Shown here: in pieces, positions 2,403 through 22,642 of the stretch | Layout of the letters: every line of letters starts with the position of its first letter | Position numbering within the stretch: the stretch's first letter is position 1 | NCBI GenBank assembly: GCA_034003325.1 | Contig: JAVEYW010000004.1 | Span: forward strand, 124,001-188,000 | DNA length: 64,000 nucleotides | Origin: Desulfobacterales bacterium | GTDB lineage: Bacteria > Desulfobacterota > Desulfobacteria > Desulfobacterales > JAFDDL01 | Direction of reading: 5' to 3' | The notes under the pieces: generated by a model | Database searches by the model: none | Told to the model about the DNA's origin: nothing | The model's input: only the letters and a program-made list of their open reading frames with translations | Translations under genes and position numbers: made by a program

Positions 2403-4379
2403 TTACCTTTCAAAAGCAAATGGCAGCAGGATGTTATTCTCGGAACCGATTTCTACCGTGCGGTTCATGACGGCCTTGCCATAGGTGGCTTCGACCTCAT
2501 AGGTGCCGGCGGGCAGCGGAACTGTCGCGTTCCCGGCGGCATCGGTATAAAACCGATACGCGGACTCTTGATTTCGCAGGGTAACGGGAACCGCCCCAAT
2601 CTCTTCGCCTCTCGTGTAATGACCGTCCCTGTTTAAATCCCGAAAAACAAGGCATACCAATGTGGCCACCGACGGCTCGGAAGGAGCAGCCACGTCGGCC
2701 ACCAACAGCAAAGAATGGATTTCTTGAAACATATTGGTTGGTTCTTCGGTTATAAGATCGGCTGCGTCCGGGGTTGTGTACAGAAACCGAATTCCGGCGG
2801 CCGTCATTTCGGAATTGAACAATCCCATCGGTGCTTCATCGGCATCCATCCGGTCGGCCAACACATTATCAAAAAGATATCTCGCCATCTTATCGGCATT
2901 AAACGGAACCGCCGCCGTAAACAATTCGAGGGTCTCTTCGACGCCAAGGGCCGAATACCCCGCATCCGCAAGCCGGGCCGTCACGTCCTTGGCGCCGTCA
3001 TCAGAATACGTATCGAAATACCCGAGCGTGATCATCTCCCGCGCATGCGCATCCGCGGCCGCATAAACCTGATGATCGGCTATCAGTGGGGGGGCCGGGT
3101 TCGACGCCGCCGGCGGCGTTTCACTGTTGATTTCCCCGGAAGGCTGCCTATAATTCCAACGCGCCTGATTTAAAAGGTTCAACGATTGTCTTTCCGGCAG
3201 CGTTCGATAGGCAAGACCGTAGGCAGTCGCAAGTGTATAAAAAGAATCGGTCGCATCGCCCGAAGTTACCCGACAATGGCCAAAAACCAATGCAAATTCC
3301 TTAATGGTCGGATTAAAAATCAAGAGCGCCGAGACATCGGCGGCTGTCAATTCCCTAAGCAACAGTTCTTTGAACATCCTTTGAATCATTTCGGCCTGTG
3401 GCAACGGCTCATTGGATTTATACCCCATCACGGTTTCACCGGTCAGCGCCGCGCAGCCATCCGCAGTATCGGTGCAATGGTCATAATGCGATAGTTTAAA
3501 GGAACTATCTTGCAGCTGCGCCTCAACAAGGGCCTGCTCATTGCGGCTATACGCGATAGCCCTCAATGAAGGGCTATACACCAAGGGCGGTGAAGAACCC
3601 GTCAAACTCGCCATCACATCCGGGGCCACATTATTCAAAAGGGCCAAATCAATGCCATAATCAAACAGGGTCTGAACCGGCGACAGGCGCGCCTGGTTGA
3701 TCAAATCCAGAAATAAAAACTCCACATCCAAATTGCTGAACCGAGCGACCAATGGCGACCCGAAGTCACAGGTCAGCAAATAGGCATTTGAAACCGTGTT
3801 GCCGACAAGGGTTACCCCCGCCATCAAGGCTATACCGACATCCTGTACCGACGGATTGAAAACAAGGCTGTTTCCACTATTCAGCCGGCGCAGATCCTGT
3901 TTTAAAAGTTGTTCAAACAAATTTTGAGCGGCTATTTCGGGCGGCATGAAATTGCTGAAAGTGATCATGCCCAGCATCTCGCCGCCCCCCGTTGCATCGT
4001 AACCGGCTTCTTTGATTCTCTCTTCGGCGGTTTGCCCCGATGGTGAAGCATAGCTGTAATAGCGGTTGGCCAGCATGTCCTGCGTGTGCTGCCGGGCTGT
4101 CCGCAGAAGGATCGAATTTAAGCGAAGTATCGGCAATCCGTCCGTCACGACGGCACGCCAGCTCGGGGAATCCGTGAGCAATTTATTCGGATCCTGGCCG
4201 ACGAGCGTCGCGGCTTCCATGGGATGGGTGCGGGCCCAATTGAGCTTCTCCAGCAAAAGCCCTTCGTAACGAAGAGATTCTTGCGCTGCAAGTTCACCTT
4301 GCGCCATCTCGGCCTGAGCGGTGGCAAAGGGTGCGGCGACCATCATCATACCGATTAATAAAAAATGCAGAAACCGCAT
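2403..4379 (-). CDS. Secreted protein with three CAP/SCP-like domains
   Basis: An exported protein: residues 1-23 form a signal peptide ending near AQA. Three helices of the form N-x-A-R (LNWARTHP near 46, INQARLSP near 235, LNQARWNY near 405) mark three consecutive divergent CAP (SCP/PR-1) domains of about 180 residues each. Bacterial CAP proteins are extracytoplasmic and mostly of unknown function; most have a single domain. The C-terminus (about 570-658) has VFRDLNRDGHYTRGEE, a calcium-binding loop typical of the SdrD B-like/carboxypeptidase-regulatory fold, followed by a short beta-sandwich. The canonical CAP catalytic His/Glu set is not obvious, so a binding rather than hydrolytic role is possible. 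It lies downstream of the TonB receptor gene on the same strand with a 224 bp gap, so it may be independently expressed. Confidence 0.75.
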   Translation of the reverse strand: MRFLHFLLIGMMMVAAPFATAQAEMAQGELAAQESLRYEGLLLEKLNWARTHPMEAATLVGQDPNKLLTDSPSWRAVVTDGLPILRLNSILLRTARQHTQDMLANRYYSYASPSGQTAEERIKEAGYDATGGGEMLGMITFSNFMPPEIAAQNLFEQLLKQDLRRLNSGNSLVFNPSVQDVGIALMAGVTLVGNTVSNAYLLTCDFGSPLVARFSNLDVEFLFLDLINQARLSPVQTLFDYGIDLALLNNVAPDVMASLTGSSPPLVYSPSLRAIAYSRNEQALVEAQLQDSSFKLSHYDHCTDTADGCAALTGETVMGYKSNEPLPQAEMIQRMFKELLLRELTAADVSALLIFNPTIKEFALVFGHCRVTSGDATDSFYTLATAYGLAYRTLPERQSLNLLNQARWNYRQPSGEINSETPPAASNPAPPLIADHQVYAAADAHAREMITLGYFDTYSDDGAKDVTARLADAGYSALGVEETLELFTAAVPFNADKMARYLFDNVLADRMDADEAPMGLFNSEMTAAGIRFLYTTPDAADLITEEPTNMFQEIHSLLLVADVAAPSEPSVATLVCLVFRDLNRDGHYTRGEEIGAVPVTLRNQESAYRFYTDAAGNATVPLPAGTYEVEATYGKAVMNRTVEIGSENNILLPFAFER

Positions 4380-15334: not shown

Positions 15335-16432
15335 TTAATAATGAGTCTGTTTCATGCATGAACCTGAAGGCCCCTGCCCCAACGCCCTTTGCCGCAGCAA
15401 ATGATCCGCCAGCACCAGGCTGACCATGGCTTCACAGACGACGTTGATTCTGGGAATGGCCGAAATGTCGTGGCGGCCTTTGATACTCAGCGTTTTGGGG
15501 TGATTCGACCGGTCGATGGTATGTTGCTCTATTTGAATGGAGGGAATCGGTTTGACCGCCACCCGCGCGATGATGTCATCCCCATTGGAAATTCCCGCGA
15601 GAATGCCGCCGGCATGATTCGTGGCAAACCCCTCGGGCGTTATCGGGTCATTGTTTTCAGATCCCAGCATGCCAGCGGCGTTAAATCCGGCGCCGATCTC
15701 GACCCCTTTTACCGCGCCGATGCCCATTAAAGCGCCGGCCAAAGCCGCGTCCAATTTATCAAATACAGGTTCCCCTAAGCCGGACGGCATCCCCTTGACC
15801 CGAATCTCCACTACCCCGCCGATCGAATCCCCCTTTTTCTTCACGTCCGCAACCCGCTGGGCCATCTCGGGCACCACCGACCTATCCGGGCAGCCGAATT
15901 CGTTTTTATCCACCTCTTCCAAGTCCCGTCGCGCGGCCCGAATGCCGCCCAGCTCAATCGTACAGGCTGATACGGTGATGGTTTCTTGCGCCAGAAGCAC
16001 ATTGGAAACGGCTCCTGCCGCCACCCGGCCGACGGTCTCGCGGGCGGACGCCCGGCCGCCGCCCCGCCAGTCCCGAATGCCGTATTTCGCCTGGTAGGTA
16101 AAATCCCCGTGACCAGGCCGGTAAATATCGGCCATCTCTTCATAGGCACTGGATCTGGCGTCTTTGTTATGCACCATGATCAGAATGGGGGTGCCCGTGG
16201 TAACGCCGTTAAAAACACCGGACAGAATTATGGCCTGGTCGGGTTCTTTTCGAGGGGTGCTGGCGGCGGAGCGCCCGGGACGCCGCCGGTCCAGCATCCG
16301 TTGAATGGTCTCTTCGCTCAACGGCAGATGGGGCGGGCAGCCGTCCACCACAACGCCGACGGCTTTTCCGTGAGACTCCCCCCAGGTCGTTATTCTAAAC
16401 AGCGTGCCAAACGTGCTGCCGGCCATACTCAT
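15335..16432 (-). CDS. aroC: Chorismate synthase
   Basis: Converts 5-enolpyruvylshikimate 3-phosphate to chorismate with reduced FMN. The 365 residues are full length. Signatures: [18 protein letters not shown] at the N-terminus (first chorismate synthase motif, catalytic His), DRRRPGRS near 48-55, [19 protein letters not shown] near 124-142, and [16 protein letters not shown] near 281-296. It is the last gene of the minus-strand aromatic operon, about 135 bp after aroA. An ATG two codons later (16426) is slightly better spaced from the AAAGGA ribosome site and may be the true start. Confidence 0.97.
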
Positions 16433-16566: not shown

Positions 16567-17832
16567 TTAACTTTTATAGAGAGTCTCAAGCACATCCCAG
16601 AAATCAGGAAAAGATTTTCCCACACACCCTTCGTTCTTGATTATGATCCCCGGCACTTTCAAGCCGGCCATGGCGAAACTCATCGCAATGCGGTGATCCT
16701 CATAAGTCTCTATTTCGGCGCCTTTCGGACTGCCACCCACGATGGTCATGCCCGAATCCGTGCAATCCGCATCAATGCCCATGCGATTGAGTTCCGTCAC
16801 AACGGCGCCGAGCCGGTCGCTTTCCTTTGCCTTTAAGTGCGCCACATTGCGAATCGTCGTGGTTCCTTTGGCAAAGGCGGCCACCACGGCAAGGGTCGGC
16901 ACGACATCCGGCATATCGGACATATCCACATCCACGCCGGTTAGATCATGGCCGGTGATGCAAATGCCGTCCGATTCTTCCAACACATGGCACCCCATGG
17001 CCGCCAGCACATCGATAAATCGCACATCCCCTTGCCGGGTACGCCGGCTCGTGCCGTTTACTTTTACGGATTTACCGCAAATCGCGGCAGCCCCCCAGAA
17101 ATAGCTCGCCTGCGAGCAGTCGGGTTCCACGGCATAGGTGCCGGATCGATAGGTCTGTCCGCCGGCCACTCGAAAGCGCGTATACCCGTCCCGGTCCACC
17201 GGGACACCCAGCTGCGTCATGACTTCCAGGGTCATGTCCACGTACGGCTTGGACACCGGGCCCTCAATAATGTGAATATTCAGCCCTTCGGCCGTGTACG
17301 GCGCGAGAAGCAGCATGGAAGATAAGAATTGACTGCTGATGCCGCATTTCAATTGAACCTCGCCGCCCTTGATCCGATCGCCTTTGACATAAACCGGCGG
17401 GCAGCCGTTTTTTTCAATCGAATGGGCCTGCACGCCGATCTGGGTCAGCCCGTCCACCAGATCCTGAATCGGGCGCTCGCGCATGCGCTGCGTGCCGTCC
17501 AGAACATAGGGGCCTTTTCCCAGGGCGCAAATACCGGTCAACAATCGAAGGGAGGTGCCGGAATTGCCTAAATGAATCGGGCCAGCGACAGGCTCGAGGT
17601 TTCCGGATCGGCCGTGGACGGTAATTTCATTCGGCGCAATGTCCATCCGTATGCCCATTTGCCGCAACCCGCTTAAGGTCAGCATAGTATCTTCGCTTTT
17701 CAGCGGGTTGTTCACCCGGCAGAGGCCGTCCGACAACGCCGATGCAATCAAAATGCGATGGGTAAAGCTTTTGGATCCCGGCACGCAAATGTCACTGTTT
17801 TCTCGTACCGGTTGGGTTTCAATAGATTTCAT
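16567..17832 (-). CDS. aroA: 3-phosphoshikimate 1-carboxyvinyltransferase (EPSP synthase)
   Basis: Transfers the enolpyruvyl group from PEP to shikimate 3-phosphate. Visible signatures: VPGSKSFTHRILIASALSDG at the N-terminus (PEP/shikimate-binding Lys-Ser), LGNSGTSLRLLTG near 91-103, QFLSSMLLLAPY, the second-half motif KESDRLGAVVTELNRMG and EDHRIAMSFAMAGL. Length 421 is normal. The frame extends upstream to a GTG at 17841, but ATG 17832 is preceded by GGTGAG at a good distance and is preferred. It lies 36 nt downstream of pheA on the same strand, so it is co-transcribed with it. Confidence 0.97.
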   Translation of the reverse strand: MKSIETQPVRENSDICVPGSKSFTHRILIASALSDGLCRVNNPLKSEDTMLTLSGLRQMGIRMDIAPNEITVHGRSGNLEPVAGPIHLGNSGTSLRLLTGICALGKGPYVLDGTQRMRERPIQDLVDGLTQIGVQAHSIEKNGCPPVYVKGDRIKGGEVQLKCGISSQFLSSMLLLAPYTAEGLNIHIIEGPVSKPYVDMTLEVMTQLGVPVDRDGYTRFRVAGGQTYRSGTYAVEPDCSQASYFWGAAAICGKSVKVNGTSRRTRQGDVRFIDVLAAMGCHVLEESDGICITGHDLTGVDVDMSDMPDVVPTLAVVAAFAKGTTTIRNVAHLKAKESDRLGAVVTELNRMGIDADCTDSGMTIVGGSPKGAEIETYEDHRIAMSFAMAGLKVPGIIIKNEGCVGKSFPDFWDVLETLYKS

Positions 17833-17868
17833 GGATCTCACCGGGGTTATGGGGTTTTTGGGGTCGGG

Positions 17869-19002
17869 TCAGTCCTTTTCCGCCGGCGCCTGCGGGTAGG
17901 AGCCCAGATATTTCATAAAAAGGCAGTGGTTGCGCATGATGTCTACGGTCTCTTTCACTTCGGCCGACTCCATATGACCCTCCACATCCAGAAAAAAGCA
18001 GTAGCTCCAGTTTTCGTGCGGACTTGGGCGGGATTCCAGTTTCACCATATTGAGACCGGCCTCGGCGATGGGGGTCAGCGCCTTATACAAGGCACCTGGG
18101 GCGTGGGCGGTTACAAACATCAGAGAGGTCTTGTCCTTTCCGGTCGGCCGCGCGCCGGTTTTGCCGATCAGCAAAAATCGCGTGATATTGCGCGAAAAAT
18201 CCTCGATTTTCGAGGCCATGACCTGAAGATTGTACAACTGGGCCGCCTCGCTGCTGGCAATGGCGGCCGCGCCCTTTTCGGAAAGCGCCTTTTGAGCGGC
18301 CTCGGCCGTGCTTCGGCATTCCTGCATGGTCACGCCGGGCAGATATTTTTGCAGCCATTTACGGCACTGGGCAAGGGCCTGGGGATGAGAGTAAATGACC
18401 GTGACCTTTTCCAATGATCCGGCCGCAGACAGTAGATCGTGAGAAATGGTCAGGTACTTTTCCGCACATATTTTCAGCTCCGACTCATAAAACAGATCCA
18501 GGGTATAATTGACTGCCCCTTCGATGGAGTTTTCCACGGGAACCACCCCGAAATGGCACTGTTCTTTTTCCACGGCCTCAAAGACGTCCCGAATGCTCGC
18601 TCGCGGCATAAAGGTTGCCGCACGGCCGAAAAACCGGCGGGCCGCCAGATGGGTGTAGGTTGCTTCAGGCCCCAGATAAGACACGATCTGGGGTTGCTGA
18701 ATTTCTCTCGAGGTGCCGAAAATTTCCGCAAAAATAAGTTGCAGCGCCTTATTGGGAATCGGCCCTTCGTTCAATTTGAAAAGCCGGTTGATAATTTCGC
18801 TTTCCCGGGCGCTGTCAAGGACTTGTCTATTGCGGCGGCCTTTTAACTCACCGATTCCCTTGGCAAGATTGAGCCGCTCGTTGATCAGGAAAAGGATTTT
18901 TTCATCAATGGCGTCAATTCGTTCACGAAGGCTGTGAATATCCGCCTCACCAGGACTGCCGGCCCGACTCGATGCTTCGGTGCTGTTGTCTTCGCTCATC
19001 AT
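17869..19002 (-). CDS. pheA: Bifunctional chorismate mutase/prephenate dehydratase
   Basis: The P-protein of phenylalanine synthesis: chorismate to prephenate to phenylpyruvate. Domains in order: AroQ-type chorismate mutase (about 20-105; LRERIDAIDEKILFLINERL), prephenate dehydratase (about 108-285; VSYLGPEATYTHLAARRFFG, VVPVENSIEGAVNYTLD, TRFLLIG) and a C-terminal ACT domain (about 295-370) with ESRPSPHENWSYCFFLD, where the ESRP motif binds phenylalanine for feedback inhibition. It starts 9 nt after the stop of the dehydroquinate synthase II gene. Feedback control at the enzyme and attenuation at the operon leader would act together. Confidence 0.96.
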   Translation of the reverse strand: MMSEDNSTEASSRAGSPGEADIHSLRERIDAIDEKILFLINERLNLAKGIGELKGRRNRQVLDSARESEIINRLFKLNEGPIPNKALQLIFAEIFGTSREIQQPQIVSYLGPEATYTHLAARRFFGRAATFMPRASIRDVFEAVEKEQCHFGVVPVENSIEGAVNYTLDLFYESELKICAEKYLTISHDLLSAAGSLEKVTVIYSHPQALAQCRKWLQKYLPGVTMQECRSTAEAAQKALSEKGAAAIASSEAAQLYNLQVMASKIEDFSRNITRFLLIGKTGARPTGKDKTSLMFVTAHAPGALYKALTPIAEAGLNMVKLESRPSPHENWSYCFFLDVEGHMESAEVKETVDIMRNHCLFMKYLGSYPQAPAEKD

Positions 19003-19011
19003 TAAAAATCT

Positions 19012-20004
19012 TTATTTTTCCGTGATGGTTTCATCGATTTTCATACCGAAGTGACGCCCGCAGGTCTCGGTCACCGCCAACACCTTGTCTCCCGGGGATA
19101 AACTGACGATGGAAACGGGGTTACCCTCGGGCGTGGTCAACCGGATGGTCTCCGCGTTTTGAAGAATGGTGGTAATTTCCTCATTCCCGATTTTGGCGCG
19201 AACCAGCATCAGCGGCCGCTTTTCTATCTTGAGACGACCCACGATACCGACGGTGGTTTTGCCCCGGTAATCGACCAACAGGACCTGGTCGCCGGCACAA
19301 AGTTCCGATAAATAGCGGGTCTTTCCTCCCGGCACCCGCGTATAGGCGTGCACCGGCCCCGCATTCACGCGAAACGGACGCGGCGCGACATACGGATTCG
19401 ACACACTCTCCGAATGAACCAGGAAAAGGGCGTTACTGGCATTTCCGACCAGCATGCCCTGCCCGACGGTCATGGCCGTGCAGGTATCGACGCATACGCG
19501 GTCCCCCATTCCCAGGGGCTTGATCTGCGTAATCTCGGCGATCTCCAGGCAGGTTTCTTCTTCGGTGGATTTGAGAACGGAAAGCGCCTTTTTTAGCGTG
19601 ATCGGGTCGGCCGGATGAATCATCACCTGGCTGACGCCTTTTTCCAGAATACCGAAGGCCGTTTGCGCTTCGGCCAGATCGCAGACCTCGGCAATCACCT
19701 GCGCCCCTTTGGCGATCAGGTTTTCAAGCGGAATAATCGTCCAATCCGTGCAGGTGAGCACCACTTTTGAATGCTGGCAGAGCTTGACGATTTCATCTTC
19801 GTCTTCTCCGCTGCGGATGGTGAAAAAAACAACGTCCTTTCCGATCTTCAGATCGCCGTCTTCGGCTATGGTCTCAATTTTCCCGAGTTGCTTGACCTGT
19901 TCCGAATACCCCAGCGGCAGCACAATGCCGTCTGCGCCGCCCTCCAGCGCCGTGGTGACCATGTCCTTATTCCACGGATCCACCTTCACCCATATCTTTT
20001 TCAT
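19012..20004 (-). CDS. 3-dehydroquinate synthase II (archaeal type)
   Basis: Performs the NAD-dependent deamination and cyclisation of 2-amino-3,7-dideoxy-D-threo-hept-6-ulosonate to 3-dehydroquinate, the second step of the DAHP-independent route known from Methanocaldococcus. The 330-residue protein begins MKKIWVKVDPWNKDMVTTALEGGADG and shows the conserved GDRVCVDTC, SNPYVAPRPFRVNAGPVHAY and PGGKTRYLSEL segments. The start at 20004 is chosen from this family start; the frame extends 70 codons further through the non-coding spacer. The gene lies 310 nt downstream of the ADTH synthase gene, a spacer that holds two long inverted repeats, and 9 nt upstream of pheA. It is not related to ordinary AroB. 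Confidence 0.93.
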   Translation of the reverse strand: MKKIWVKVDPWNKDMVTTALEGGADGIVLPLGYSEQVKQLGKIETIAEDGDLKIGKDVVFFTIRSGEDEDEIVKLCQHSKVVLTCTDWTIIPLENLIAKGAQVIAEVCDLAEAQTAFGILEKGVSQVMIHPADPITLKKALSVLKSTEEETCLEIAEITQIKPLGMGDRVCVDTCTAMTVGQGMLVGNASNALFLVHSESVSNPYVAPRPFRVNAGPVHAYTRVPGGKTRYLSELCAGDQVLLVDYRGKTTVGIVGRLKIEKRPLMLVRAKIGNEEITTILQNAETIRLTTPEGNPVSIVSLSPGDKVLAVTETCGRHFGMKIDETITEK

Positions 20005-20056
20005 GATAGGTTTTATCCTCTCCTGAGCCGGCTTCGCCGGACGATAGTGTATACTT

Positions 20057-20121
20057 ATCCGCAGATGACGCAGATTCCGCAGATCCATAATATATCCGGG
20101 TAATCTGCGGCATCTGCGGAT
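20057..20121. repeat. Long hairpin in the aromatic operon spacer
   Basis: Two 20-bp arms at 20057-20076 and 20102-20121 are reverse complements except for one base, around a 25-nt loop. The arms themselves repeat a (CC)GCAGAT(GA) word, giving the TCTGCGG look of dispersed Desulfobacterota intergenic repeats. It lies 53 nt upstream of the dehydroquinate synthase II start codon and would form in the operon transcript. Confidence 0.8.
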
Positions 20122-20158
20122 GAGACGCTTAATGGTCCTAAAGAATTTCAAATAGTTG

Positions 20159-20314: not shown

Positions 20315-21112
20315 TCACCCCAGTATCTTCAGCGCCTCATCCACGCTCGCATTCCCATGCACCACCGCGGAGATCGCCATGACCATGCGCGTGGGATCCG
20401 AATGCTGGAAAATATTCCGGCCGATGGAAACCCCTGCGCCGCCGGCATCGATAGACCCTCGGACCATCTCGATAATTTCCCGGTCTGAATTCATTTTCGC
20501 GCCACCCGCAATGACAACCGGTATGGAGCAGCCCTCGACGACCTCCCGAAAAGACTCAGGGGATCCCGTGTAGGAAACCTTGACAATATCAGCCCCCATT
20601 TCATCGCCGACCCGCGCGGCATGTTTGATCACCGAAACGTCATATTCGTCCTTAATTTTCTCGCCCCGGGGGTATACCATGGCCAACAGCGGCATGCCCC
20701 AGATCCTTGCCTCCCGGCTGACCGTTCCGAAATCCCGGAGCATCTCCTTTTCATCCCCATTCCCGAGGTTCACATGAATGGAGACCGCATCCGCACCCAG
20801 CTTAATCGCTTCCTCCACCGTACAGACCAGTGTTTTGGCATTCGGGTACGGTGAGAGGCTGGTAGAAGCGGACATATGGATAATCAGGCCGATATCCTTG
20901 CCGGACATGCGATGCCCCTTGTCCACAAGCCCCTTGTGCTCCACAATCGCGTTCGCACCGCCATCGGCCACTTTGCCGATCGCCTCTTTCATGTTGATGA
21001 TTCCGGGAATCGGGCCTACCGTCGTCCCATGGTCCATGGGGACAATGACCGTTCTACGCGTGTTTCTGTTGAGAATCCGCTCTAATCTGACTTTTTTTCC
21101 AATGTTCGTCAT
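20315..21112 (-). CDS. 2-amino-3,7-dideoxy-D-threo-hept-6-ulosonate (ADTH) synthase, DhnA-type aldolase
   Basis: A class I aldolase of the DhnA/FbaB family (265 residues) that makes ADTH from aspartate semialdehyde and a ketose phosphate, the first step of the archaeal-type route to dehydroquinate. Signatures: [15 protein letters not shown] near 26-40, [15 protein letters not shown], the Schiff-base lysine in [31 protein letters not shown], and [13 protein letters not shown] with the phosphate-binding Gly-Arg. Assignment to ADTH synthase rather than fructose-bisphosphate aldolase rests on its being first in the operon with dehydroquinate synthase II. ATG 21112 follows AGGAGG at ideal spacing. 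Just upstream are an intrinsic-terminator hairpin and a leader peptide (see those entries), so it is the gene directly controlled by attenuation. Confidence 0.92.
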
Positions 21113-21137
21113 TCGGTGCCTCCTGTTGGCGTCCAGC

Positions 21138-21215
21138 AAAAAAGGCCGGGGAGCATTTTCTTCTCCGCGGCCTTTTAAAAAACTTAAAAGCCGCGGCGTT
21201 CGATCCGCCCGCGGC
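21138..21215 (-). promoter_or_regulatory. Transcription attenuator of the aromatic operon
   Basis: Read on the minus strand, hairpin 1 (21215-21190) pairs GCCGCGGGCG with CGCCGCGGC. Hairpin 2 (21172-21144) pairs GGCCGCGGAG with CTCCCCGGCC and is followed by a run of U from AAAAAA at 21138-21143: an intrinsic terminator only about 26 nt before the start codon. The 3' arm of hairpin 1 with its U tail (21187-21197) can instead pair with the 5' arm of hairpin 2 (21166-21176), CCGCGGCTTTT against AAAAGGCCGCGG, forming an antiterminator. Mutually exclusive structures next to an aromatic-rich leader peptide are the hallmark of trp/phe-type attenuation. Confidence 0.85.
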
Positions 21216-21238
21216 TTTTTTTGCTTATTTAAGTTACA

Positions 21239-21319
21239 TCAGCGCACCCCGGGCAAACCTCTACCGAAAAAATAAAAACACCAAAAATAAAAGTAAAAAT
21301 CGGCTGCCGGTCGGTGCAT
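21239..21319 (-). CDS. Aromatic-rich leader peptide of the aromatic operon
   Basis: A 26-residue frame beginning ATG CAC CGA and ending TGA, 24 nt before hairpin 1 of the attenuator. Residues 8-18 read FYFYFWCFYFF: six Phe, three Tyr and one Trp in eleven codons. This is the design of a control peptide whose translation stalls when charged tRNA-Phe, -Tyr or -Trp is scarce. An in-frame ATG three codons upstream (21328) is an alternative start; neither has a strong Shine-Dalgarno site. It is too short to be called by gene finders. The composition cannot be explained by poly-T alone, because UAC, UAU, UGG and UUC codons are interspersed in frame. Confidence 0.85.
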   Translation of the reverse strand: MHRPAADFYFYFWCFYFFGRGLPGVR

Positions 21320-21384
21320 GGGTATCATAATCTTATAAAATAGTTCTTTTTTTGAGCGATTGTTGAATCAGTGTCTGCTTTCCT

Positions 21385-21408
21385 ATAAAGTTGACTTATA
21401 ATTGTCAA
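21385..21408 (-). promoter_or_regulatory. Possible sigma-70 promoter of the aromatic operon
   Basis: TTGACA (complement of 21403-21408) lies upstream of TATAGG/TTTATA at about 21382-21390 with a shorter than ideal spacing (13-15 nt). The -35 box is part of a dyad TTGAC-TTATAATT-GTCAA (21391-21408) that could be an operator. Placement upstream of the leader peptide is right, but the box spacing makes this tentative. Confidence 0.35.
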
Positions 21409-21436: not shown

Positions 21437-22642
21437 TCATGCCGTAGGTACCGTCGCCTTGTAGAGGGTCGCGTCGCCTTTCAGCGTATAGGCGAATACG
21501 GCAGCCGGCACAAGCAGCGCCATTCCTCTTTTGACGGTCAGGGATTCGTTTTTTCCGGCATTCGTCATGTGCGCCTGCCCTTCCGTACAAAAGAGAATCT
21601 CAACCCCTCTCGTTGATTCACTTTTATAATCAGCGCCACCGGAAAGGATGATGACGGAGAGCGCAAATTCCTCAGCCGGACACGGATAGCGGCGCTCACA
21701 GGGCCGAATTTCCTTCGGTGACAGAATATCGATCTCTCTTTCTTCAAAATTCAGCACCTGTAAGAGTTCCGGCACATTCACATGCTTGGGGGTTAATCCA
21801 CCCCGAAGCACATTGTCCGAGTTGGCCATCAGTTCCATTCCAAGCCCCTCCAGATAGGCGTGCAGCTCCCCCGCTTCCAGAAACATGGCCTCTCCGGGCT
21901 TCAGACACACCAGGTTCAACATCACGGGGGACAAGATACCGATATCCGACGAATAAGCCCGATGAAGTGTTATTATCCACTGATAACAGGGCGCCGTCGC
22001 ACCCAGCGGTTGCGCATTGAAAACCGCCTCGGAAATAACCCGCTGTTTTTTGGTTTCATTTAGTGTCATCAGCGTTTCAAAAAACCGCTTCAATCCCGCC
22101 GGATTTCGAGTCCGATCGAGCAGGGCCAAATCGGCGCCCAGCGTCTTTGGACATATCCGCCGCAAATGGAATAGCATATCGGCCATTCTGCGAAACCCTC
22201 TTAACGCCCAAAAGGGGGTTAACGCGCAAATGCATTCCGGTTTGTGGTTTGTGTCTCTGTAATTTCTCTCCGGCGCGGTTAGCGCAATGCCCATCCGGTT
22301 TTCCCTGTCAAAGCCGGAAATCGCCTGCGCCGCGTTGGGATGCGCCTGAATGGAAAGCGGCTCGGCCGCGGCAAGCACCTTGAATAGATAGGGCAGTTTT
22401 CCGTTAAATTTCGTTGCCGCGTAAGCGCCTAAAATCTCTACCGGATACCTGTCAATCAGGTCCGTGAGGGGGATTTTCCGTCCCTTATATGGAACCAGCG
22501 AGGGGGATTTTGAATGCGCGCCCATCCAAAGCTCTGCCTGAGGAGTTTGGGATGGCGATTTCCCCAACAAGTCCGCAATAGCCGTCCGGGAGCCCCAGGC
22601 ATATTCCTGAATCGGATTTTCAAGGATGCAAATCGAGTTCAT
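21437..22642 (-). CDS. manA: Mannose-6-phosphate isomerase, class I
   Basis: Zinc enzyme interconverting mannose 6-phosphate and fructose 6-phosphate, feeding GDP-mannose for surface sugars. The 401 residues begin ILENPIQEYAWGSRTAIADLLG, and show AELWMGAHSKSPS, the metal-binding LSIQAHPNAAQA and KPECICAL segments, and the C-terminal EAGELHAYLEGLGMELMANSDNVLRGGLTPKH motif region containing the catalytic arginine. Length is normal for class I. It lies on the same strand as the MFS and nitroreductase genes upstream (32 nt gap after the MFS gene) but probably ends its own transcript before the aromatic operon promoter. Confidence 0.95.
   Translation of the reverse strand: MNSICILENPIQEYAWGSRTAIADLLGKSPSQTPQAELWMGAHSKSPSLVPYKGRKIPLTDLIDRYPVEILGAYAATKFNGKLPYLFKVLAAAEPLSIQAHPNAAQAISGFDRENRMGIALTAPERNYRDTNHKPECICALTPFWALRGFRRMADMLFHLRRICPKTLGADLALLDRTRNPAGLKRFFETLMTLNETKKQRVISEAVFNAQPLGATAPCYQWIITLHRAYSSDIGILSPVMLNLVCLKPGEAMFLEAGELHAYLEGLGMELMANSDNVLRGGLTPKHVNVPELLQVLNFEEREIDILSPKEIRPCERRYPCPAEEFALSVIILSGGADYKSESTRGVEILFCTEGQAHMTNAGKNESLTVKRGMALLVPAAVFAYTLKGDATLYKATVPTA

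Follow-up and report, generated by a model that had tools for sequence, protein, structure and literature searches.

Comparative evidence for a ribosome-mediated attenuator with two coupled terminators before the archaeal-type shikimate operon of Desulfobacterota

How a bacterium of the sulfate-reducer type might adjust an archaeal-type entry into the shikimate pathway to its supply of aromatic amino acids is the question raised by a short region in a stretch of 64,000 nucleotides of Desulfobacterales contig JAVEYW010000004.1, referred to here as the window. Below this region, on the minus strand, is an operon of five genes, all of which score above their NCBIfam cut-offs.

20315–21112, minus strand: ADTH synthase (2-amino-3,7-dideoxy-D-threo-hept-6-ulosonate synthase; ADTHS), first structural gene (TIGR01949, 368.6 bits, cut-off 299.45; NF005556, 409.6)
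19012–20145, minus strand: 3-dehydroquinate (DHQ) synthase II, DHQS II (NF002627, 489.8 bits, cut-off 392)
17869–19002, minus strand: chorismate mutase/prephenate dehydratase, PheA (NF008865, 280.4 bits, cut-off 219)
16567–17841, minus strand: EPSP synthase, AroA (TIGR01356, 439 bits, cut-off 287.25)
15335–16432, minus strand: chorismate synthase, AroC (TIGR00033, 425.9 bits, cut-off 212.2)

The entry is of the archaeal type: ADTHS and DHQ synthase II are adjacent, and no DAHP synthase above cut-off was found in the genome (97.6% complete), so that ADTHS is its only visible entry into the pathway. Among relatives, DHQS II lies downstream of ADTHS at 35 of the 36 loci with enough sequence, PheA at 31 and AroA at 27. 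Elsewhere in the same genome (G000) is a second ADTHS-like gene (contig C17:39199–39987, L151; 58.7% identity), which carries no leader of the kind described below and beside which no aro neighbours were recognised.

Upstream of ADTHS, on the same strand, are a candidate promoter and a short leader frame.

21382–21408, minus strand: candidate promoter, sequence motif TTGACA (21408–21403), 15-nt spacer and TATAGG (21387–21382)
21239–21319, minus strand: leader peptide ORF MHRPAADFYFYFWCFYFFGRGLPGVR, 26 codons, ATG at 21319 and TGA at 21241–21239
21266–21298, minus strand: predicted regulatory codons, from the sequence, Phe Tyr Phe Tyr Phe Trp Cys Phe Tyr Phe Phe

The 26-codon frame and its FYFYFWCFYFF core, on which the initial annotation had built a proposal of attenuation, are borne out, ten codons of the tract being aromatic. 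Initiation at a second in-frame ATG (21328) would lengthen this very hydrophobic peptide by three codons, to 29 residues. The leader start in the window is without a clear Shine-Dalgarno sequence; a purine-rich, Shine-Dalgarno-like 4-mer precedes 70 of 87 leaders. Chance is a poor source of such a frame, as none of 3000 dinucleotide shuffles of the 550 nt upstream in the window produced a comparable ORF. In 79 of 85 relatives the 120 nt before the leader start contain an exact TTGACA, compared with a mean of 3.35 and a maximum of 9 in shuffles, which points to a promoter ahead of the leader. A palindrome over the −35 element (TTGAC-N8-GTCAA, 21391–21408) was considered as an operator and set aside, its count in the window being near chance.

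Folding of the leader transcript can be described by six segments, each with one or two predicted partners.

21296–21317, minus strand: segment A, 5′ part of the leader ORF, partner of B when no ribosome is present
21250–21259, minus strand: segment B, GGUUUGCCCG, codons GLPG, end of the leader ORF, partner A or C
21206–21219, minus strand: segment C, 5′ arm of hairpin 1 (candidate terminator 1), overlapping the B-pairing site 21211–21203
21177–21198, minus strand: segment D, 3′ arm of hairpin 1 (21198–21186) and a U-rich stretch, partner C or E
21163–21176, minus strand: segment E, 5′ arm of candidate terminator 2, partner F or D
21138–21153, minus strand: segment F, 3′ arm of candidate terminator 2 and its U-run (−19.4 kcal/mol)

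Both GC-rich hairpins of the initial annotation are present, hairpin 1 (21219–21186) at −22.0 kcal/mol and hairpin 2 (21176–21140) at −19.4 kcal/mol, and the second is followed, as had been noted, by a U-run (U6) just before the ADTHS start, with 25 nt between the last terminator U (21138) and the ATG (21112). Their inner arms (21196–21186 and 21175–21165) are indeed able to pair, at −18.1 kcal/mol, and this D:E pairing covaries among relatives. Hairpin 1 itself ends in a U-run and is thus a candidate terminator, coupled through D:E to the second. This U-run, the pairing of the leader end with hairpin 1 and the promoter motif at 21408–21382 extend the original description. The 96-nt hairpin region is stabler than 200 of 200 dinucleotide shuffles (z −3.6). 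The fold from A to B reaches −17.5 kcal/mol in the window, in a register that differs from the consensus CAGGCAG:CUGCCUG, and A:B is imperfect here. A scan of the window for consensus promoters and terminators listed neither this promoter nor the two terminators.

Two competing structures were counted in an alignment of 51 leaders of relatives (A1). The terminator fold, made up of A:B, C:D and E:F, has 91.1% of its cells paired and double changes in 16 of 25 pairs; 0 of 500 shuffles did as well, and slid controls gave 36–48%. For the alternative fold (B:C and D:E) the figures are 93.3% paired and double changes in 9 of 17 pairs; no more than 2 of 500 shuffles equalled it, and slid controls gave 36–42%. 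Every helix of the resulting chain, which is of the his type, is at least 88% paired: A:B, formed by CAGGCAG near the start of the ORF and CUGCCUG near its end, at 88% (double changes in 4 of 7 pairs); B:C, formed by GGUCUGCCUG and a partner within hairpin 1, at 92% (6 of 10); C:D at 94% (6 of 9); D:E at 94.7% (3 of 7); and E:F at 90% (6 of 9). RNAalifold returned C:D and E:F only, and the alternative helices were tested by naming them. At least five U per 8 nt come after segment D in 51 of 51 relatives, and after segment F in 40 of 44. Some relatives (L045, L050, L061 and L006), like the Syntrophales-type variant described below, have a weak or altered terminator 2.

A further helix, B′:C′, joins the last codon and stop codon with the linker and covaries in many relatives (for example, GCUCU:AGAGC and UUGCU:AGCAA). 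Placed by alignment column it fails, with 62% paired, because the length of the linker varies; a per-sequence search recovers it, with a score of 10.26 against 7.68 for swapped partners (maximum 9.05 in 500). It is weak in the window, at three pairs.

Segment B lies inside the leader ORF, which therefore overlaps a pairing segment. In 49 of 53 leaders its start lies 6 nt past the final aromatic codon, and in 34 of 53 it comes 18 nt ahead of the stop codon. With the usual ribosomal footprint, this spacing would leave B largely free when a ribosome is stalled in the tract, and covered when one stands at the stop codon.

We give a probability of roughly 0.93 to the reading that transcription of ADTHS–DHQS II–pheA–aroA–aroC is controlled here by a ribosome-mediated, his-type attenuator in which two terminators are coupled. 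Sequence and covariation show the leader and its conserved spacing, two sets of helices, U-runs, and a promoter motif ahead of the operon; from these we infer leader translation, stalling, termination and the response to amino acids. Transcription would start just below 21382. With no ribosome loaded, A would pair with B, leaving C:D and E:F to form and both to terminate. When charged Phe- and Tyr-tRNA (here also Trp-tRNA) are plentiful, the ribosome would clear the tract, reach the stop codon and cover B, and C:D and E:F would again form, ending transcription ahead of ADTHS. When aromatic charged tRNA is short, the ribosome would stall in the tract, covering A and leaving B free; B would pair with C as C emerges, spoiling terminator 1 and freeing D, and D would pair with E, spoiling terminator 2, so that the operon is transcribed. 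Masking a stalled ribosome in the window still leaves the terminator fold ahead in energy (B:C about −19.9 against −22.0 kcal/mol for C:D; D:E −18.1 against −19.4 kcal/mol for E:F). The antiterminator is thus not the lowest-energy fold, and antitermination would have to rest on the order in which the segments emerge, as it does in the trp leader of Escherichia coli.

In arrangement the element follows the attenuator of the enterobacterial his operon (RF00514, His_leader), in which five sequential alternative helices, A:B to E:F, follow one another, the leader ORF overlaps A and B, and lack of translation leads to termination. The five-helix chain and the position of the ORF over A and B are shared; the codons here are Phe, Tyr and Trp, and C:D here also has a U-run and is a candidate terminator. 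The RF00514 model scores 20.4 bits, on the opposite strand, against a cut-off of 49.

To follow the leader beyond the window, orthologues were taken from relatives of the same order and from named genomes. At 62 of 67 named loci, the region upstream of ADTHS contains an ORF that reaches a threshold of seven aromatics in ten residues; among control tiles cut from these loci, 7 of 3283 reach it. Frames of about 20–30 codons, dense in F, Y and W, precede nearly all Desulfobacterota orthologues, the one in the culturable Desulfonema magnum 4be13 (L042) included, and most of the peptides end in a motif of the GLPGVR or GLPVVR kind. An alignment across the phylum, which the initial annotation had named as its check, thus finds the aromatic leader kept and the helices covarying, and its own counter-case of leader codons that are not conserved falls away; ribosome-mediated attenuation of an archaeal-type (ADTHS and DHQ synthase II) shikimate operon is the interpretation that this comparison supports. 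Its claim that all three aromatic amino acids are sensed holds in part: Phe and Tyr codons occur in 87 of 87 leaders and Trp codons in 63 of 87, which makes Phe/Tyr the conserved signal and Trp a variable one.

Loci labelled Aquificales, Lentisphaerae or archaeal (L105–L111) have no such leader. Among three further loci at which no leader was called, L046 has a frame interrupted early and a retained RNA element (80.8 bits; 4160–4350), which may reflect an assembly error or a recent loss of control; at L102, a leader, MKRISLSNRSGWGFYFYFDRGGLPMG, was found upstream of a shikimate-kinase-like gene that heads the operon; and L062 is the only one with none. At L052, labelled Candidatus Falkowbacteria, ADTHS is 78% identical and the RNA element is absent from its usual place; the label or the binning may be wrong.

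A variant of Syntrophales type (L071, L074–L076, L081, L082, L085, L086, L088, L089, L091, L092, L095, L096, L098 and L099) has leaders resembling YYYFSYYYF, many with a CASTFKRP end, and CUUUUAAAAG repeats able to pair across the leader end and the linker. Hairpin 1 of this variant has a clear U-run, and hairpin 2 lies near the ribosome-binding site.

Could the element act more through translation, by hiding the ribosome-binding site of ADTHS, than through termination? The Syntrophales-type hairpin 2, which by eye adjoins that site and is without a clear U-run, would suit such a mode; in the window, however, the AGGAGG ribosome-binding site near 21125 is outside both hairpins and both hairpins have U-runs, and we consider a mainly translational mechanism very improbable. 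Similarly slight are the prospects of an explanation from the gene upstream, manA, likewise a minus-strand gene, with its end at 21437: tandem GC-rich hairpins with U-runs resemble an ordinary double terminator, and the T-rich ORF between manA and its terminators might then be a chance one. Yet the upstream gene is not conserved: only 13 of 54 relatives have ManA in the 3 kb ahead of the element, whereas nearly all keep leader and hairpins. Moreover, the promoter motif separates manA from the leader, hairpin 1 covaries with the last part of the leader ORF, and the leader codons fit the downstream pathway.

Whether the RNA scaffold occurs apart from ADTHS was addressed with a covariance model (R1) of segments B to F, built from ADTHS leaders only and with the aromatic codon tract left out. 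R1 matches 196 of 395 genomes of the phylum at an E-value of 0.001 or better. Its second-best match in the genome of the window precedes a trpE-headed operon (contig C10:153422–153547; L113, L152), where a second attenuator on the same scaffold has a leader, MMQFNRQWWWQAHIPGLAYGT, of WWW type. Leader and next gene were read for 90 high-scoring matches, which are the top matches and not a random sample. Phe/Tyr-rich leaders (57 of the 90) precede ADTHS in 25 cases, an AroFGH-type DAHP synthase in 11, a Bacillus subtilis-type DAHP synthase in 14, a shikimate kinase in 1, an ABC-transporter binding protein in 3 and an unclassed gene in 3, one of the latter being an aminotransferase by Pfam. Trp-run leaders (28) precede trpE in 15 cases, trpD in 3, a TrpB-like gene in 5 and a B. 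subtilis-type DAHP synthase in 5; the remaining 5 leaders are of other or unclear type. None of the trp genes among these 90 matches lies behind a Phe/Tyr leader, and no gene for ADTHS or an AroFGH-type DAHP synthase lies behind a Trp-run leader. As R1 holds no codon tract, this agreement between codons and genes is independent evidence.

The same agreement bears on the possibility that the RNA is a riboswitch or a protein-binding leader and its ORF incidental. A pair of mutually exclusive folds is a hallmark of riboswitches too, but no Rfam family (release 15), riboswitches included, and no T-box covariance model matched the window or 12 related loci at the gathering threshold. What is conserved is the coding tract as a class of amino acids, with F and Y interchanging, together with the helices, and there is no aptamer-like unpaired core; a Trp-codon version of the scaffold, moreover, stands before trp genes. 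We hold this possibility to be remote. Matches to Rfam at relaxed E-values were rejected, as they look like chance fits to the hairpins. Least likely is a gene for a functional hydrophobic small protein, such as a membrane peptide or type I toxin, placed by chance before the operon, for although the peptide is strongly hydrophobic and its ORF widespread, its sequence and length vary while aromatic identity, the distance to B and the stop codon, and the RNA helices are kept, and the leader codons track the downstream pathway.

Some occurrences of the scaffold stand before other genes. AroFGH-type synthases stand behind Phe/Tyr leaders at L129, L130–L134, L141, L145, L173, L191 and L195; the leader at L129 has an ADTHS-like end, RLPEVR (scaffold match of 93.5 bits), as has MNPYAGSVYYFWFYFYGTARLPGVR at L132, RLPGVR (scaffold match of 87.8 bits), in a genome of the same order (G010) in which no ADTHS match was found. 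Trp-run leaders before a B. subtilis-type DAHP synthase (L143, L162, L164, L175 and L197) suggest a Trp-controlled entry isozyme under attenuation. Phe/Tyr-rich leaders also stand before genes for ABC-transporter substrate-binding proteins (L180, L194 and L196), which may belong to importers of aromatic amino acids. Two weaker matches from the group of five with other or unclear leaders have an IlvB-like gene (L190, leader containing VLVVVV) and a LeuA-like gene (L215) behind them, and the scaffold may thus extend to branched-chain amino acids.

Among described systems, the pheA and trp leaders of E. coli (RF01859, Phe_leader; RF00513, Trp_leader) likewise combine cognate codons, a terminator and an antiterminator ahead of an amino acid operon; they differ from the present element in answering to a single amino acid and having one terminator. 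The Phe_leader model matches weakly, at 16.7 bits against a cut-off of 55. The Leu/phe leader of Lactococcus (RF01743), listed in PMC2864571, resembles the element in a name that cites more than one amino acid, and comes from a different lineage. A further described system is the AroR-aroF attenuator of the actinobacterium Corynebacterium glutamicum (Neshat et al. 2014), which, according to PMC11802643, has a Phe-Tyr-Phe leader peptide before the DAHP synthase gene aroF, where ribosome stalling raises transcription in response to Phe and not to Tyr. As described there, it shares a leader before the enzyme that opens the shikimate pathway; the enzyme here is ADTHS instead, with ten aromatic codons and tandem coupled terminators. 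In Acholeplasma, the uORFC-13-1 motif upstream of aroF (24 sequences; PMC8632094) comprises a predicted uORF that contains one or more Phe codons and is followed by a terminator and a DAHP synthase gene, as here in outline, although it is a prediction only and belongs to another phylum and structure.

The initial annotation had regarded attenuation of this gene set as undescribed. Shikimate-entry precedents exist in AroR-aroF and, as a prediction, in the Acholeplasma motif, and the claim narrows to the ADTHS route and to Desulfobacterota: for these no account of attenuation, and for the ADTHS route no described regulation, was found in the open-access literature, so that 'undescribed' is provisional. 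The mechanism is classical; its setting, the tandem design and its reuse across entry enzymes appear to be undescribed in that literature.

We lean slightly towards the view that one inherited attenuator scaffold outlived its enzyme, the entry enzyme having been replaced behind it (ADTHS, AroFGH-type or B. subtilis-type) and retuned Trp-run copies having come to control trp genes. R1 provides a covariance model for a family missing from Rfam release 15. With one RNA scaffold joined to varied codon tracts and enzymes, the family amounts to a natural experiment in which codon specificity and the survival of a regulator through enzyme replacement are testable. On the comparative evidence, ribosome-mediated attenuation would be a phylum-wide control of aromatic amino acid synthesis in Desulfobacterota, the ADTHS route included.
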